Positions 4,726-29,318 of a stretch of 38,198 nt of DNA are shown piece by piece; position 1 is the stretch's first letter, and every line of letters starts with the position of its first letter. The stretch covers positions 1-38,198 of the forward strand of contig JAKAST010000006.1 of the NCBI GenBank assembly GCA_021828155.1, written 5' to 3'. The stretch is from Microcaldota archaeon. Lineage in GTDB: Archaea > Micrarchaeota > Micrarchaeia > Micrarchaeales > Micrarchaeaceae. A program made the position numbers and the translations under genes. The notes under the pieces were generated by a model. The model searched no databases and was not told the origin of the DNA. It saw nothing but the letters and a program-made list of their open reading frames with translations.

Positions 4726-4962
4726 GTAGCGGGAGGCGGGCAGCTTACCGAAAGGAGGAAGCTCCCCTCATGCAGAGTGCAGATGTGCCCAAGGCACAAT
4801 TCGGAACAGAAACGATACCCGGAAGTTGCACATTGCTATGACACGACGAGCGCAACCAAGGGATGAAACGCGCCGATGCGCTGCACAGTGAGCATGCAAG
4901 GCTATAACGCCGCTCAGTTGAATGCTGCCTAAAACAGAAAGGGGGCTACGGCCTCTCGCTAC
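4726..4962 (+). ncRNA. rnpB: RNase P RNA
   Basis: This is the catalytic RNA that cleaves tRNA 5' leaders. P1 pairs 4726-4737 with 4951-4962 (one G-U). P2 pairs GGCAGC near 4739-4744 with GCTGCC at 4924-4929. P3 is a short hairpin with a GAAA loop. P4 pairs AGC(U)CCCC at 4760-4767 with GGGGGCT at 4941-4947, leaving U4763 unpaired, which matches the universally conserved bulged uridine. Conserved-region sequences GGAGGAAG, ACAGAAACGATACC, AAGGGATGAAACG and ACAGAAA...GGCTAC are in the right order. At about 237 nt it is shorter than typical archaeal type A RNAs (near 300 nt), so the specificity domain is compact. Confidence 0.92.
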
Positions 4963-5392: not shown

Positions 5393-5509
5393 TGGCGGGG
5401 GCGAGATTTGAACTCGCGACCTCTAGATTTCTCGTCATCGCAAAGAAGCTCGTCACTCATTATGCTATGCATATGAGTCTAGCGCTCTACCAGGCTAAGC
5501 TACCCCGCC
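5393..5509 (-). tRNA. tRNA-Met (CAT) with a 43-nt intron
   Basis: On the minus strand the acceptor stem is GGCGGGG/CCCCGCC, with D arm GCTTAGCCTGGTAGAGC, T arm GCGAGTTCAAATCTCGC and discriminator A. The anticodon CAT is at 5475-5473. The anticodon stem CTAGA/TCTAG closes only if about 43 nt (5471-5429) is removed from the canonical 37/38 position, which is the standard archaeal intron site cut by the splicing endonuclease. The G1-C72 pair argues for elongator rather than initiator. A tRNA-Ile2 with a modified CAT anticodon cannot be excluded. A TATA-like box at 5537-5544 fits its start. No CCA is encoded. Confidence 0.9.
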
Positions 5510-21673: not shown

Positions 21674-21747
21674 AAAATCGCAGGTATTGCGCGTTTCGCG
21701 CCTTTCATGCTTGGCATGACACCACTAAAAACCTTCCCAGACAAAGG

Positions 21748-21756
21748 TATAAAAAG
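21748..21756 (+). promoter_or_regulatory. TATA box for the proDH-like/SDR/GGGPS/NFACT/RNase Z array
   Basis: TATAAAAAG gives a predicted start near 21777, about 26 nt before the first start codon. No equally good box is seen before the later genes of the array. Confidence 0.6.
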
Positions 21757-23778: not shown

Positions 23779-24576
23779 ATGATGAACAAAAAGGTCGAGA
23801 GTTACATACACGATACTATAGAGAGCAAGGGCGCGATGCTCTTCTCGCTCATGGACCCTGTTGATTACAGGAGCGAGCGCGACGCCATCGAGACCGCGAA
23901 GGCTGTGACGAAGGGCGGCAGCGACATACTGCTGCTCGGCGGCAGCAGCGGGGTGCAGGGCACCATGCTCGACGAAGTGACGAGCCAGATAAAGGAGGCC
24001 ATAGATGTGCCGCTCGTGCTCTTCCCGGGCAACGTCGCCACTATAACAAAGCACGCCGATGCGATATACTTCATGTCGCTCCTCAACTCAAGGAACCCCT
24101 ACTGGCACGCCCAGGCGCAGATGCTCGTCGCGCCTCTCATAAGGCAGCTTGGCATAGAGCCCCTGCCCGTCGGCTACATACTCATAGAGCCCGGAGGCAC
24201 GGCAGGCTGGGTCGGAGACGCTAACATGGTGCCGCAGGGCAAGCCGAAGATTGCAGCTGCGCTGGCCCTCACCGGCCAGTACCTCGGCAGCAGGCTGATA
24301 GTTACCGACACAGGTTCTAACCCTAGGATACAGGGCCAGGGGCCGATACCCGCTGAGATGATAAGGGCGGTAAGGGAAGCGATAGACGTGCCCTACATAG
24401 TGGGAGGCGGCATAATCTCGGAGCAGGAGCTCCGCACGGCATACCGGAGCGGCGCTGACGCAGTGCAGATAGGCACAGCGTTCGAGGACGGCGCGAGCTC
24501 CTCAGCTTACAAGAAGGCGCTGCTCTTCTCGAGAATAGCGAAAGAGGAGGGCGCCAGGAAGAGAAAAGGGCGCTAG
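23779..24576 (+). CDS. Geranylgeranylglyceryl phosphate synthase
   Basis: It forms the first ether bond of archaeal membrane lipids, joining sn-glycerol-1-phosphate and geranylgeranyl diphosphate. About 265 aa form a TIM barrel with the family marks. MLFSLMDPVDY stands for the usual LIDPDK phosphate-site strand. It is followed by GGSDILLLGGSSGV, VLFPGN, GYILIEPGGTAGWVGDA and, near the end, YIVGGGIISEQELRTA and ADAVQIGTAFE. The start is ATG 23779 or the adjacent ATG 23782. It sits 4 nt before the NFACT gene and probably belongs to the same transcript as its neighbours. Confidence 0.93.
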   Translation: MMNKKVESYIHDTIESKGAMLFSLMDPVDYRSERDAIETAKAVTKGGSDILLLGGSSGVQGTMLDEVTSQIKEAIDVPLVLFPGNVATITKHADAIYFMSLLNSRNPYWHAQAQMLVAPLIRQLGIEPLPVGYILIEPGGTAGWVGDANMVPQGKPKIAAALALTGQYLGSRLIVTDTGSNPRIQGQGPIPAEMIRAVREAIDVPYIVGGGIISEQELRTAYRSGADAVQIGTAFEDGASSSAYKKALLFSRIAKEEGARKRKGR

Positions 24577-24580
24577 CCGA

Positions 24581-25693
24581 ATGCGCGAGGTATCCACGCT
24601 GGAGCTCTCGGTGCTTTCCAGGGAGCTCGCGGCGCTCAATGGCTACCACATAGACAAGTTCTACGAGCTGGGCGAGGGCTCATTCAGGTTCAGGCTGAGC
24701 AGGCAGGGCAGGCAGCTCAACCTGCAGTGCATTCTGGGCTGCACTGTTGGCGCAACGCGCTACATAGAGGCCGCGGAGCAGCCTACAGGCTTCGCGCTCG
24801 CAGTGCGCAAGCGCATATCTGGCGCAGTGATAGAATCTGTTGAGCAGTACAACAATGACCGCATCATTCTTATGCGGCTCTCGAAGGCGGACTCTGTTCT
24901 CGGCATAGTCTTCGAGATGTTCGGCAGGGGCAACATGGTAATAGTGGAGAACGATATGCGCATAATGCTCGCATACAGGACCCACGACTTCAAGGACAGG
25001 AGCGTGAGGCCCGGAGCGACGTACGTGCCGCCGCAGGGTGCCCCGGTAACAATCGCTGGTATAGGCGAGGCGCGGGATGCGCTGGCAGGGCTTGCGAAGA
25101 CTGCGGGCCAGGACCAAACGCTCGCCTCGTTCCTGAACAGGAGCGTGAACCTAGGCGCGCCGTACGTGGAGAACGCATTGCTGCGCCTGGGCATGGACCC
25201 GAAGGCCAAGCTCTCCAGTGCCTTAGCTGAACTGCCGAGGATAGCCAAGGCGCTCGCCGACGAAGTAAGGGAATCGGCAGCGCCCTCGTACATCATGTAC
25301 CTCAAGGACGGCAATGCGGTTGACTACTCTGTACTGCCGCTCGTGAAGTACGATGCACTAGAAAGGCGTGAATTCGCGAGCATGCAGGAGCTCCTCGACG
25401 AGTTCTACTACAGCACAATCCCTAAGGAAACTGTGGAGGAGAATGCGCTCGCGAAGGAGCTGGCCGCGAGCATGGAGAAGCAAAGGCAGGCAATGGCGGA
25501 GATGGAATCAGCAATGGCATCGAACCGCGAGGCCGGCAGAAAGATATTTGAAATGCTAAACCAGATAAATATGCTTATAGCATATGCAAGGGAGCACAGG
25601 CGCGCCACGCTCGAGGAGCTCAGGGAGCGCTTCCCGGAGCTGAAGATAATCGACGTCGACCTGAAGGAAAAGAGGGTAAGGCTTGACCTGTAA
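24581..25693 (+). CDS. NFACT-N (RqcH/NEMF-like) protein lacking the C-terminal NFACT-R part
   Basis: The N-terminal 200 residues match the NFACT-N domain of Rqc2/RqcH/NEMF, which recognises obstructed large ribosomal subunits carrying peptidyl-tRNA. Examples are ELAALNGYHIDKFYELGEG, GFALAVRKRISGAVIE, the NDRIILMRL DR motif, FGRGNMVIVENDMRIM and PGATYVPPQ. A helix-hairpin-helix-like region and a coiled coil (about 280-345) follow. The protein then stops at residue 370, where archaeal homologues usually continue through a second coiled-coil arm and NFACT-R for about 650 residues in total. The next gene starts 19 nt later, so no remnant follows. It is either a reduced lineage form or a split gene. 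Confidence 0.82.
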   Translation: MREVSTLELSVLSRELAALNGYHIDKFYELGEGSFRFRLSRQGRQLNLQCILGCTVGATRYIEAAEQPTGFALAVRKRISGAVIESVEQYNNDRIILMRLSKADSVLGIVFEMFGRGNMVIVENDMRIMLAYRTHDFKDRSVRPGATYVPPQGAPVTIAGIGEARDALAGLAKTAGQDQTLASFLNRSVNLGAPYVENALLRLGMDPKAKLSSALAELPRIAKALADEVRESAAPSYIMYLKDGNAVDYSVLPLVKYDALERREFASMQELLDEFYYSTIPKETVEENALAKELAASMEKQRQAMAEMESAMASNREAGRKIFEMLNQINMLIAYAREHRRATLEELRERFPELKIIDVDLKEKRVRLDL

Positions 25694-25712: not shown

Positions 25713-26624
25713 ATGTTCAGGATAACCATACTCGGCACCTCGGGCTCGGCGCCCACGAAGGAGCGCGGGCTGGCAGGTGTTGCGGTGGAGTACGAGGGCA
25801 TGCTCTACCTGCTGGACTGCGGCGAGGGCACGCAGAGGCAGATGATGCGCTTCGGACTCAACCCCTACAGGATAAACGCCATATTCATAACGCACATGCA
25901 CGGCGACCACGTCATAGGCGTTGCTGGTATAGTGCGCACGCTTGCGCTCTACAAGCGCACCGCCCCGCTGTACATATACGTGCCTGAGGGCTATGCGAAG
26001 GGATTGCTCTCGCTGCTCCAGTTCGACAACGCCATGCTGAGCTATCCTATAATAGTCGAGGAGGTTCGCGCCGGTGTAGTGCGCACTGACAGGAACCTCG
26101 AGATAAGGGCTTTCGCGCTCAGGCACACAGTTAAGACGTACGGCTACGTGGTCAGGGAGCTAGACAGGCACCATTTCATAAAGTCAAGATGCGATACGCT
26201 CGGCATAAAGAGCGAGATGTTCTCTGCTCTCTCAAAGCGCGGCTCAATCAGGATAGGCAAAAAGACCGTAAGGCTGGGCGAGGTGACAACCGTAGAGCTG
26301 GGCAGGAAGATCGTGTATGCGACCGACACCCGGCCAGCTGCCTCTACTGTGACTGCGGCAAAGGACGCCGACCTTCTGATCCACGAATCGGCATACAGCG
26401 ACGAGCTGGCCAAACTGGCAAAGGAGCGCCTCCACTCAACAGCGAGAGAGGCCGCGGGCGTGGCAAAGAGGGCGCACGTCAAGAGGCTCGTGCTGACGCA
26501 CATGAGCACACGCTATACAGACCCGCGTGTGCTGGAAGACGAGGCCAAGGCAATATTCAAGAATGTTGAGGCCGCAAGTGACGGAATGAGCATTGCAATT
26601 GAACGCAACAAGAGGGGCCCGTAG
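25713..26624 (+). CDS. rnz: Ribonuclease Z (tRNA 3' endonuclease)
   Basis: It cuts the 3' trailer from pre-tRNAs. The 303-residue metallo-beta-lactamase protein has ITILGTSGSAPTKERG at the start, LLDCGEGTQRQM and the zinc motif THMHGDHVIG (about residues 60-69). Further ligands are the His in ALRHTVKTYGYV, the Asp in YATDTRP, the HESAY block and the His in LTHMSTRY. Length and order are those of the short tRNase Z form. The stop TAG at 26622-26624 occupies positions 8-10 of the downstream tRNA-Val, so the two genes overlap by 10 nt and share a strand. Confidence 0.96.
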   Translation: MFRITILGTSGSAPTKERGLAGVAVEYEGMLYLLDCGEGTQRQMMRFGLNPYRINAIFITHMHGDHVIGVAGIVRTLALYKRTAPLYIYVPEGYAKGLLSLLQFDNAMLSYPIIVEEVRAGVVRTDRNLEIRAFALRHTVKTYGYVVRELDRHHFIKSRCDTLGIKSEMFSALSKRGSIRIGKKTVRLGEVTTVELGRKIVYATDTRPAASTVTAAKDADLLIHESAYSDELAKLAKERLHSTAREAAGVAKRAHVKRLVLTHMSTRYTDPRVLEDEAKAIFKNVEAASDGMSIAIERNKRGP

Positions 26625-26686
26625 TCGATTGGTAAGACGTCACGTTGACAACGTGAAGATACGGCGTTCGATTCGCCGCGGGCCCA
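26615..26686 (+). tRNA. tRNA-Val (GAC), overlapping the end of RNase Z
   Basis: The acceptor stem is GGGCCCG/CGGGCCC, the D arm GTCGATTGGTAAGAC, the anticodon stem TCACG/CGTGA with loop TTGACAA (anticodon GAC), the T arm CGGCG-TTCGATT-CGCCG and the discriminator A. All stems pair. Its first 10 bases lie within the RNase Z reading frame. No convincing TATA box lies 25-30 nt upstream, so it is probably made from the RNase Z transcript. No intron and no encoded CCA. Confidence 0.95.
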
Positions 26687-26783
26687 TATGTAATTTGGGC
26701 GCCTGGAGCTGCAGCCCGGCCGCGAGAGGCGCAGAAAGCGTAAAGCGCGATTTATACGCCAAGAAACGGACGTGACGCAAGCC

Positions 26784-26791
26784 TTTTAAAG
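26784..26791 (+). promoter_or_regulatory. TATA box of membrane paralogue A
   Basis: TTTTAAAG is followed by GCATTGCCAGTTCACTCACT, closely matching the downstream promoter stretch of the second paralogue at 28923. This shows the promoter was duplicated with the gene. Confidence 0.6.
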
Positions 26792-26822
26792 CATTGCCAG
26801 TTCACTCACTGCTGTGATTGAA

Positions 26823-27185
26823 ATGGCTAAAGAAAGTAGGACGAACCCGGCAGCATTCGTGCTGCAGTTTCTCGGTAGCGTCATATATCTGGCCCTTGTC
26901 TACCTGATCTCAACCGGATCGATAGCCTTCGGCGCGGCCGTATCGTCGATATGGTTGCCATTGCTGTATGCAGGCGCGGTAGTGAGCTCGATAATCCTGT
27001 TCATAGTCAGCTTCACATACCTGCTTCCGAATGCCGGCTACAAGTTCGGCGCGACTGCGGGATGCGCGGCAATAGCTGCAGGATTTACCCTTGTGGCACT
27101 GAGCCTGGGCAGCACGACGTACCTGATCATGGCCATAGTGGGCTTCATACTGGCCATAATCGGAGCTGGGCTCGGCAAGAAGTAA
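26823..27185 (+). CDS. Small four-helix membrane protein, paralogue A
   Basis: The 120-residue protein has four membrane helices at about residues 12-32, 40-66, 74-94 and 98-117. It has a charged N-terminus (MAKESRTNPAA) and ends in a short basic GLGKK tail. It is about two-thirds identical to the protein at 28962, including an identical NPAAFVLQFLGS opening. The family is unknown to me. ATG 26823 is preferred over GTG 26814 because the paralogue starts at the matching MAK. It has its own promoter and a T-rich end, so it is a single-gene unit. Confidence 0.75.
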   Translation: MAKESRTNPAAFVLQFLGSVIYLALVYLISTGSIAFGAAVSSIWLPLLYAGAVVSSIILFIVSFTYLLPNAGYKFGATAGCAAIAAGFTLVALSLGSTTYLIMAIVGFILAIIGAGLGKK

Positions 27186-28961: not shown

Positions 28962-29318
28962 ATGGCAAAGTTAACCAGAAGGAACCCGGCAGCATTCGTG
29001 CTGCAGTTTCTCGGTAGCATCATATACCTGGTCGTTGTATACCTGGTATCCATTGGAACAGTAGCATTCGGGTCGGCTGTGTCGTCGATATGGCTGCCAT
29101 TGCTGTATGCAGGCGCGCTGATAAGCTCGATATTACTATTCATAGTCAGCTTTACCAACCTAATGCCATCGGGCAAATTCGGCATGTATGCGGGCAGCGC
29201 TGCACTGATCGGCGGCTTCACCCTGATGGCTCTGACGTATGTGAGCTCGTTCTGGCTGTTAGTCAGCATAGTGGGCTTCGTACTGGCCATCATAGGAGCA
29301 GGCCTGGCAAAGGAGTGA
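28962..29318 (+). CDS. Small four-helix membrane protein, paralogue B
   Basis: The 118-residue protein has four predicted membrane helices and the same plan as the protein at 26823. The shared opening is NPAAFVLQFLGSIIYL, the shared block is SSIWLPLLYAGA, and the end is IGAGLAKE. DNA identity is high at the start of both genes and extends into the promoters, so this is a fairly recent local duplication. Helices 3 and 4 have diverged most (AGSAALIGGFTLMALTYVSS versus the other copy). The function is unknown. A T-rich terminator follows. Confidence 0.75.
   Translation: MAKLTRRNPAAFVLQFLGSIIYLVVVYLVSIGTVAFGSAVSSIWLPLLYAGALISSILLFIVSFTNLMPSGKFGMYAGSAALIGGFTLMALTYVSSFWLLVSIVGFVLAIIGAGLAKE

Follow-up and report, generated by a model that had tools for sequence, protein, structure and literature searches.

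The stop codon of a ribonuclease Z gene lies inside the following tRNA-Val(GAC) gene in a Micrarchaeota genome

Known systems with overlapping tRNA and protein-coding genes

The closest precedent for the gene arrangement described here is selC nested in or overlapping selB (Mukai 2021, PMC8124441). In this bacterial system, the gene of tRNA-Sec is nested in or partly overlaps the SelB reading frame, with the stop codon at tRNA positions 46–48 in Dyella/Luteibacter, and relatives place the stop before the tRNA; processing of the tRNA was predicted—on bioinformatic grounds only—to yield a non-stop mRNA (PMC8124441). The present locus features the same basic layout: a same-strand tRNA overlaps the 3′ end of a gene for a tRNA-handling protein, in this case rnz, which encodes ribonuclease Z (RNase Z), and the stop codon (TAG, 26622–26624) lies inside the tRNA. 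It differs from selB/selC in being archaeal, in pairing RNase Z with tRNA-Val, in an overlap of 10 nt only, and in ending at U8-A9-G10 of the tRNA; the tRNA is not nested, and a coupled downstream ORF is absent. Whereas the selB/selC overlap is highly conserved, the rnz overlap occurs in 10 of 127 loci, arose at least eight times, and is conserved within one genus only. RNase Z acts on tRNAs in general and, unlike SelB, which binds tRNA-Sec alone, is not dedicated to tRNA-Val(GAC). The gatB and tRNA-Asn genes of G001, a genome of the same genus, fit the selB/selC precedent better in this respect.

Animal mitochondria show tRNA punctuation and tRNA–gene overlaps, for example tRNA-Lys in cox1 of Armadillidium vulgare (cited in PMC8124441). 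As is proposed below for rnz, coding genes share a transcript with the tRNAs next to them, the mRNA ends arise from excision of these tRNAs, and an overlapping transcript gives either the mRNA or the tRNA. Unlike the mitochondrial case, rnz belongs to a cellular archaeon, whose RNase P is RNA-based. Mitochondria can finish truncated stop codons through polyadenylation; we know of no such completion for the archaeal rnz case, in which the entire stop codon would be removed.

tRNA genes that lack a proximal start site have been described in Haloferax volcanii, where a dRNA-seq study lists 13 of 52 tRNA genes of this kind (PMC4983044). They belong to tRNA–tRNA and rRNA operons, with one case of a 300-nt leader and one possible multicistronic operon, so that operon transcription or long leaders explain the missing start sites there, a situation similar to that of the rnz locus; the passage on these genes describes no tRNA that overlaps the stop codon of a coding gene (PMC4983044). 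No report of an rnz/tRNA or gatB/tRNA-Asn overlap was found in the open-licence literature.

The rnz and tRNA-Val(GAC) genes

The window—the whole stretch of 38,198 nt that was analysed—comes from a 590-kb Micrarchaeota MAG, ~85% complete, in which it forms a contig of its own (G000:C20). The rnz gene occupies 25713–26624 of the forward strand (303 aa, stop TAG). Its product passes both NCBI RNase Z equivalog cut-offs, with 311.7 bits for NF000801 (cut-off 252) and 302.3 bits for TIGR02651 (cut-off 292.95). As judged by these sequence models, it is an RNase Z of the archaeal/bacterial short form, for which cutting of the pre-tRNA 3′ trailer is predicted. The gene of tRNA-Val(GAC) lies on the same strand at 26615–26686, where both ARAGORN and Rfam (RF00005, 65.7 bits) call it. 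It has no encoded CCA and is the only Val(GAC) tRNA detected in this ~85% complete genome. A further tRNA of the window, intron-containing and assigned as Ser(AGA) by ARAGORN, is located at 5393–5509 on the reverse strand; Rfam finds it, and the default ARAGORN run missed it.

The two genes share exactly 10 nt (26615–26624), and the TAG at 26622–26624 forms U8-A9-G10 of the tRNA, just as the preliminary description of this locus had stated. The final two sense codons of rnz (GGC CCG) come from the 5′ strand of the tRNA and lie fully within it. Since tRNAs conserve U8 and G10 and frequently carry an A at position 9, the stop codon is built into the tRNA. The usual length of RNase Z in the family is 296 residues; compared with most relatives, the window protein features a C-terminal extension of seven codons (ERNKRGP, 26601–26621, +), the last two of which are those inside the tRNA. 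The minimum-energy structure of 26560–26700 retains the acceptor stem and the anticodon arm rather than a full cloverleaf, with z = −1.8, which carries little weight.

The identical 10-nt overlap is found in G001 (locus L002), which was assembled separately and whose RNase Z shares 84% amino acid identity with that of the window; the overlap is therefore not an assembly error. Absence of the overlap from all close relatives, which had been named as an argument against its relevance, is thus not what is observed. Among the seven tail codons, two synonymous and two non-synonymous differences separate the window from G001, whose tail reads ERAKRGS, and the frame is unchanged. It is scarcely conceivable that the frame is misassigned, in the sense that RNase Z truly ends upstream or that the overlap is a sequencing error. 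Such a reading would draw on the end ~7 codons earlier (296 aa) in most relatives and on some apparent overlaps (L006, L012) that turned out to hold an earlier in-frame stop; yet neither the window nor G001 has an in-frame stop before the TAG at 26622, and their tails differ by changes of both kinds with no frameshift. Across the order, L006, L012/L034, and L019 were rejected as stop-in-tRNA cases on account of an earlier in-frame stop in each.

Promoter of the tRNA and co-transcription

The other tRNAs of the genome served to learn a BRE/TATA-like element with the consensus AAGCATTAAAAT, which starts mostly at −34 to −40 from the tRNA; this promoter model is trained on ~28 tRNAs from one genome. 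Of these other tRNAs, 22/29 score ≥5. For tRNA-Val(GAC) at 26615, no such element is present at the expected distance—the best match scores 1.8–2.0 versus ~7–14 for most other tRNAs—which bears out the earlier remark that this tRNA has no clear promoter; a weak or atypical one may nonetheless exist. A separate tRNA promoter, together with rnz mRNA that mostly runs past an uncut tRNA, had been named as the other argument against the proposal, and no such promoter is seen at the usual place. A good element is likewise lacking for Ala(GGC), Arg(CCG), Val(TAC), located at +4 behind an aminotransferase gene, and Gly(CCC), located at +4 behind the gene of a PAC2 protein.

Going upstream from the operon, a PWM scan first meets a strong BRE/TATA-like element at 21745–21756 (+, score 10.4), and no site scoring ≥9 occurs on the same strand of the window between 21745 and 26779. 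The next strong element, AAGCCTTTTAAA at 26779–26790 (+, score 13.5), lies downstream of the tRNA and serves the next gene. With no promoter-like element at the usual place ahead of the tRNA, no strong one back to 21745, and a separate one for the next gene at 26779, the operon of rnz and the NFACT gene described below probably has this tRNA as its last cistron, and co-transcription of the three has good support. Against this reading, supplying the only detected tRNA-Val(GAC) from a multi-gene operon seems costly. Beyond the element at 26779, the same strand encodes two similar small hydrophobic proteins (~120 aa, 26814–27185 and 28962–29318) that have no Pfam match and look like paralogues.

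Throughout the order, a suitably spaced TATA-like element is found in 1 of 63 loci by a strict cut and 2 of 63 by a looser one where the tRNA overlaps rnz or follows within 9 nt, and in 27 of 63 and 43 of 63 scored loci, respectively, where the spacer is longer. With spacers of 16–26 nt, the TATA box falls in the last rnz codons. In none of the ten genomes with an overlap was a significant promoter site found ahead of this tRNA. In a test of independent pairs, ~2.6 to 4.4 speak for the association and ~0 against it, which is the expected direction and not significant, as the correction for kinship leaves seven supported pairs, too few for significance. In part, the absence of promoters near the end of rnz is expected because TATA boxes are hard to keep in a constrained coding region.

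These data bear on an alternative in which an atypical promoter within rnz drives the tRNA separately, most rnz mRNA runs past the tRNA or decays unseen by RNase P, and the overlap is inconsequential. Promoters inside coding sequence look real in the order, as the TATA boxes in the last rnz codons illustrate, and the archaeal dRNA-seq study reports 1153 internal starts in Haloferax (PMC4983044). However, the low score of the best match ahead of tRNA-Val(GAC), the 5 kb upstream without a strong site, and the ten overlap genomes that all lack a significant one make this alternative unlikely.

Distribution of the overlap across the order

The search for rnz loci covered 164 genomes from two families of the order, and 136 loci are usable after dropping duplicates and run-offs. 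A same-strand tRNA-Val follows rnz in 127 of the 136, with the anticodon GAC in almost all; outside the order, a same-strand tRNA lies close behind rnz in 1 of 73 loci, namely a bacterial tRNA-Ala at +23 (L105). The rnz/tRNA-Val neighbourhood is ancient in the order; the stop-in-tRNA overlap is not.

The distance from the rnz stop to the tRNA ranges from −34 to +650 over the 127 loci. The stop lies inside the tRNA in ten—seven at U8-A9-G10, two at positions 13–15, and one at U33-G34-A35—and the first G of the tRNA is shared in two. Exact abutment (+1) is seen in 25, a distance of +2 to +9 in 26, and a greater one in 64, so that 63 of 127 loci have a stop that lies in the tRNA, touches it, or is at most 9 nt away. 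As the stop ranges from a distant position through abutment to one within the same tRNA, the order provides a natural series for asking whether tRNA processing competes with translation of the preceding gene. The single stop at U33-G34-A35 belongs to L233 (G057), where the RNase Z frame enters tRNA-Val by 35 nt and its TGA runs across the anticodon. Among stops at distance 0 or 1, TAG is used in 22 of 27 loci as against 19 of 64 at ≥10, a difference that partly reflects shared descent; the G at −1 that an abutting TAG provides might be relevant to RNase P.

On a protein tree of RNase Z, the ten overlap genomes require at least eight gains (FastTree, many weak branches), and descent-shared overlap is found in the window genus only. 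The nearest clade on this tree (L003, L004, L143) has its TAG directly before the tRNA (+1). The overlap is thus a recurring, unstable state: the 10-nt arrangement is kept by the one relative of the same genus, and most other relatives stop before the tRNA. Overlaps in family f1 are all of the shortest possible kind. The tRNA itself offers the stop. In 69 of 127 order tRNAs, a TAG at positions 8–10 awaits frames that enter with codons 2–4/5–7/8–10; of the remaining frames, one mostly meets a stop at 13 or 19, and the third usually meets none. Loss of the native stop therefore leads to this geometry automatically in one frame of three.

The upstream operon and ribosome rescue

The operon upstream of rnz contains a gene of the geranylgeranylglyceryl phosphate synthase family (23782–24576, +, our own reading of the ORF from the ATG at 23782) and a gene for NFACT N-terminal and middle domains, the N-terminal part of archaeal RqcH (24581–25693, +, PF05833 with 120.3 bits). 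The latter encodes 370 aa and matches NF041120 over positions 1–376 of 645; it is hence not a complete RqcH/NFACT with the N, middle, and NFACT-R domains in one protein. A separate NFACT-R protein is encoded at G000:C9:114631–114957 (L343), and RqcH appears to be split between the protein of the rnz operon, which has the N-terminal and middle domains, and NFACT-R elsewhere. NFACT-R also sits in a short reading frame (266–299 aa) in G001, G010, and G019. The preliminary description had rightly placed an NFACT gene directly upstream of rnz and had linked it to the need for rescue, but the gene covers the N-terminal part of RqcH only, and its position next to rnz, shared by 114 of 131 loci, characterises the locus in general and does not track the overlap. 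The archaeal RNase P RNA is present in the window at 4728–4960 (+, RF00373 with 89.4 bits), and Pelota is encoded elsewhere in the genome, so that cutting and rescue are both possible.

Proposed mechanism

We regard it as rather probable that tRNA-Val(GAC) is a promoterless last cistron, that the rnz mRNA receives its 3′ end from RNase P, that this leaves a non-stop mRNA in the window genus, and that the overlap is a near-neutral outcome of gene packing. After a cut by RNase P at 26614/26615, the rnz mRNA would terminate at its stop codon or no more than a few bases from it. Where a relative has its stop ahead of the tRNA, the remaining rnz mRNA would finish with that stop or right behind it. 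In the window genus, the native stop would have been lost, with the frame now terminating at U8-A9-G10 of the tRNA, and each transcript that yields a mature tRNA would leave a non-stop rnz mRNA on which late ribosomes stall. Only ribosomes that arrive at the stop ahead of the folding and cutting of the tRNA would produce RNase Z; since the 5′ half of the tRNA is covered while a ribosome occupies the stop, translation and tRNA folding should be mutually exclusive. The size of the protein loss would be set by timing, and stalled ribosomes could be rescued by Pelota and the two-piece RqcH. The overlap would then be a nearly neutral, independently recurring result of tight gene packing, and a lower yield of RNase Z a tolerated side effect—possibly a useful one—rather than the product of a dedicated circuit.

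The earlier proposal that maturation of the tRNA removes the rnz stop is consistent with the geometry, the missing promoter, and the presence of RNase P RNA; the non-stop rnz mRNA itself is plausible in the window genus. If the tRNA is indeed cut from the rnz transcript, the cell must constantly rescue ribosomes from messages broken by its own tRNA maturation, and RNase P would set mRNA ends in these reduced archaea. The idea developed for selB/selC would, if this is true, extend to archaea and to other tRNA-handling enzymes.

The same stop in other genes

The stop codon of G001 gatB, which encodes Asp-tRNA-Asn amidotransferase B, is likewise U8-A9-G10 of a tRNA, here tRNA-Asn (L344, G001:C3:248806–250284). 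In 11 of ~21 related loci (L344, L345, L346, L347, L352, L356, L357, L358, L361, L364, and L365), gatB ends inside the following tRNA-Asn(GUU), at U8-A9-G10 or at ~16–18, so that here the gene of an enzyme overlaps the tRNA on which that enzyme acts. For tRNA-Asn and some Gly tRNAs, the start given by ARAGORN is one base too early, and offsets of −10 and −18 there correspond to −9 and −17. Overlapping frames below ~110 aa were discarded as chance, and a 230-aa frame ahead of tRNA-Asn in G019 (L308) was excluded from the count as it has no family match. An AMMECR1-family gene of G010 (L297) also ends at U8-A9-G10, in this case of an intron-containing tRNA-Ile; the stop of its G001 ortholog (L253) lies directly before tRNA-Ile. 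The rnz case is one instance of a wider habit.

This bears on the original interpretation of the locus as a self-limiting circuit of RNase Z, in which a high tRNA-processing capacity would lead to less RNase Z and selection would keep the overlap. The geometry makes a non-stop message unavoidable once RNase P cuts, the tRNA has no encoded CCA and is hence itself a substrate of RNase Z, the overlap arose at least eight times and is kept within the genus with its tail still open, and a comparable model has been proposed for selB/selC (PMC8124441). Nevertheless, the stop is removed by RNase P and not by RNase Z, so that the level of RNase Z would not be sensed directly; 117 of 127 loci, including the nearest relatives L003, L004, and L143 (+1), have no overlap, and those that do are scattered; the same geometry occurs behind unrelated genes such as AMMECR1; and the NFACT adjacency is independent of the overlap. 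A circuit specific to RNase Z thus finds no support in these comparisons, and we hold it to be very unlikely. The circuit idea fits gatB/tRNA-Asn better than rnz.

Beyond the packing account preferred for rnz, a broader and rather doubtful possibility is that Micrarchaeota commonly form the mRNA 3′ ends of tRNA-tailed operons by RNase P, with recurrent use of U8-A9-G10 as the stop. Full protein would then arise only if ribosomes precede the folding of the tRNA, and otherwise the transcript would give the tRNA and a non-stop mRNA for Pelota and the split RqcH, setting enzyme against tRNA output for gatB/tRNA-Asn and perhaps for rnz/tRNA-Val. The gene after tRNA-Asn encodes an aspartyl-tRNA-synthetase-like enzyme, and the order gatA–gatB–tRNA-Asn–AspRS is found in G001 and G006; G001 additionally encodes AsnRS and a second tRNA-Asn(GUU).
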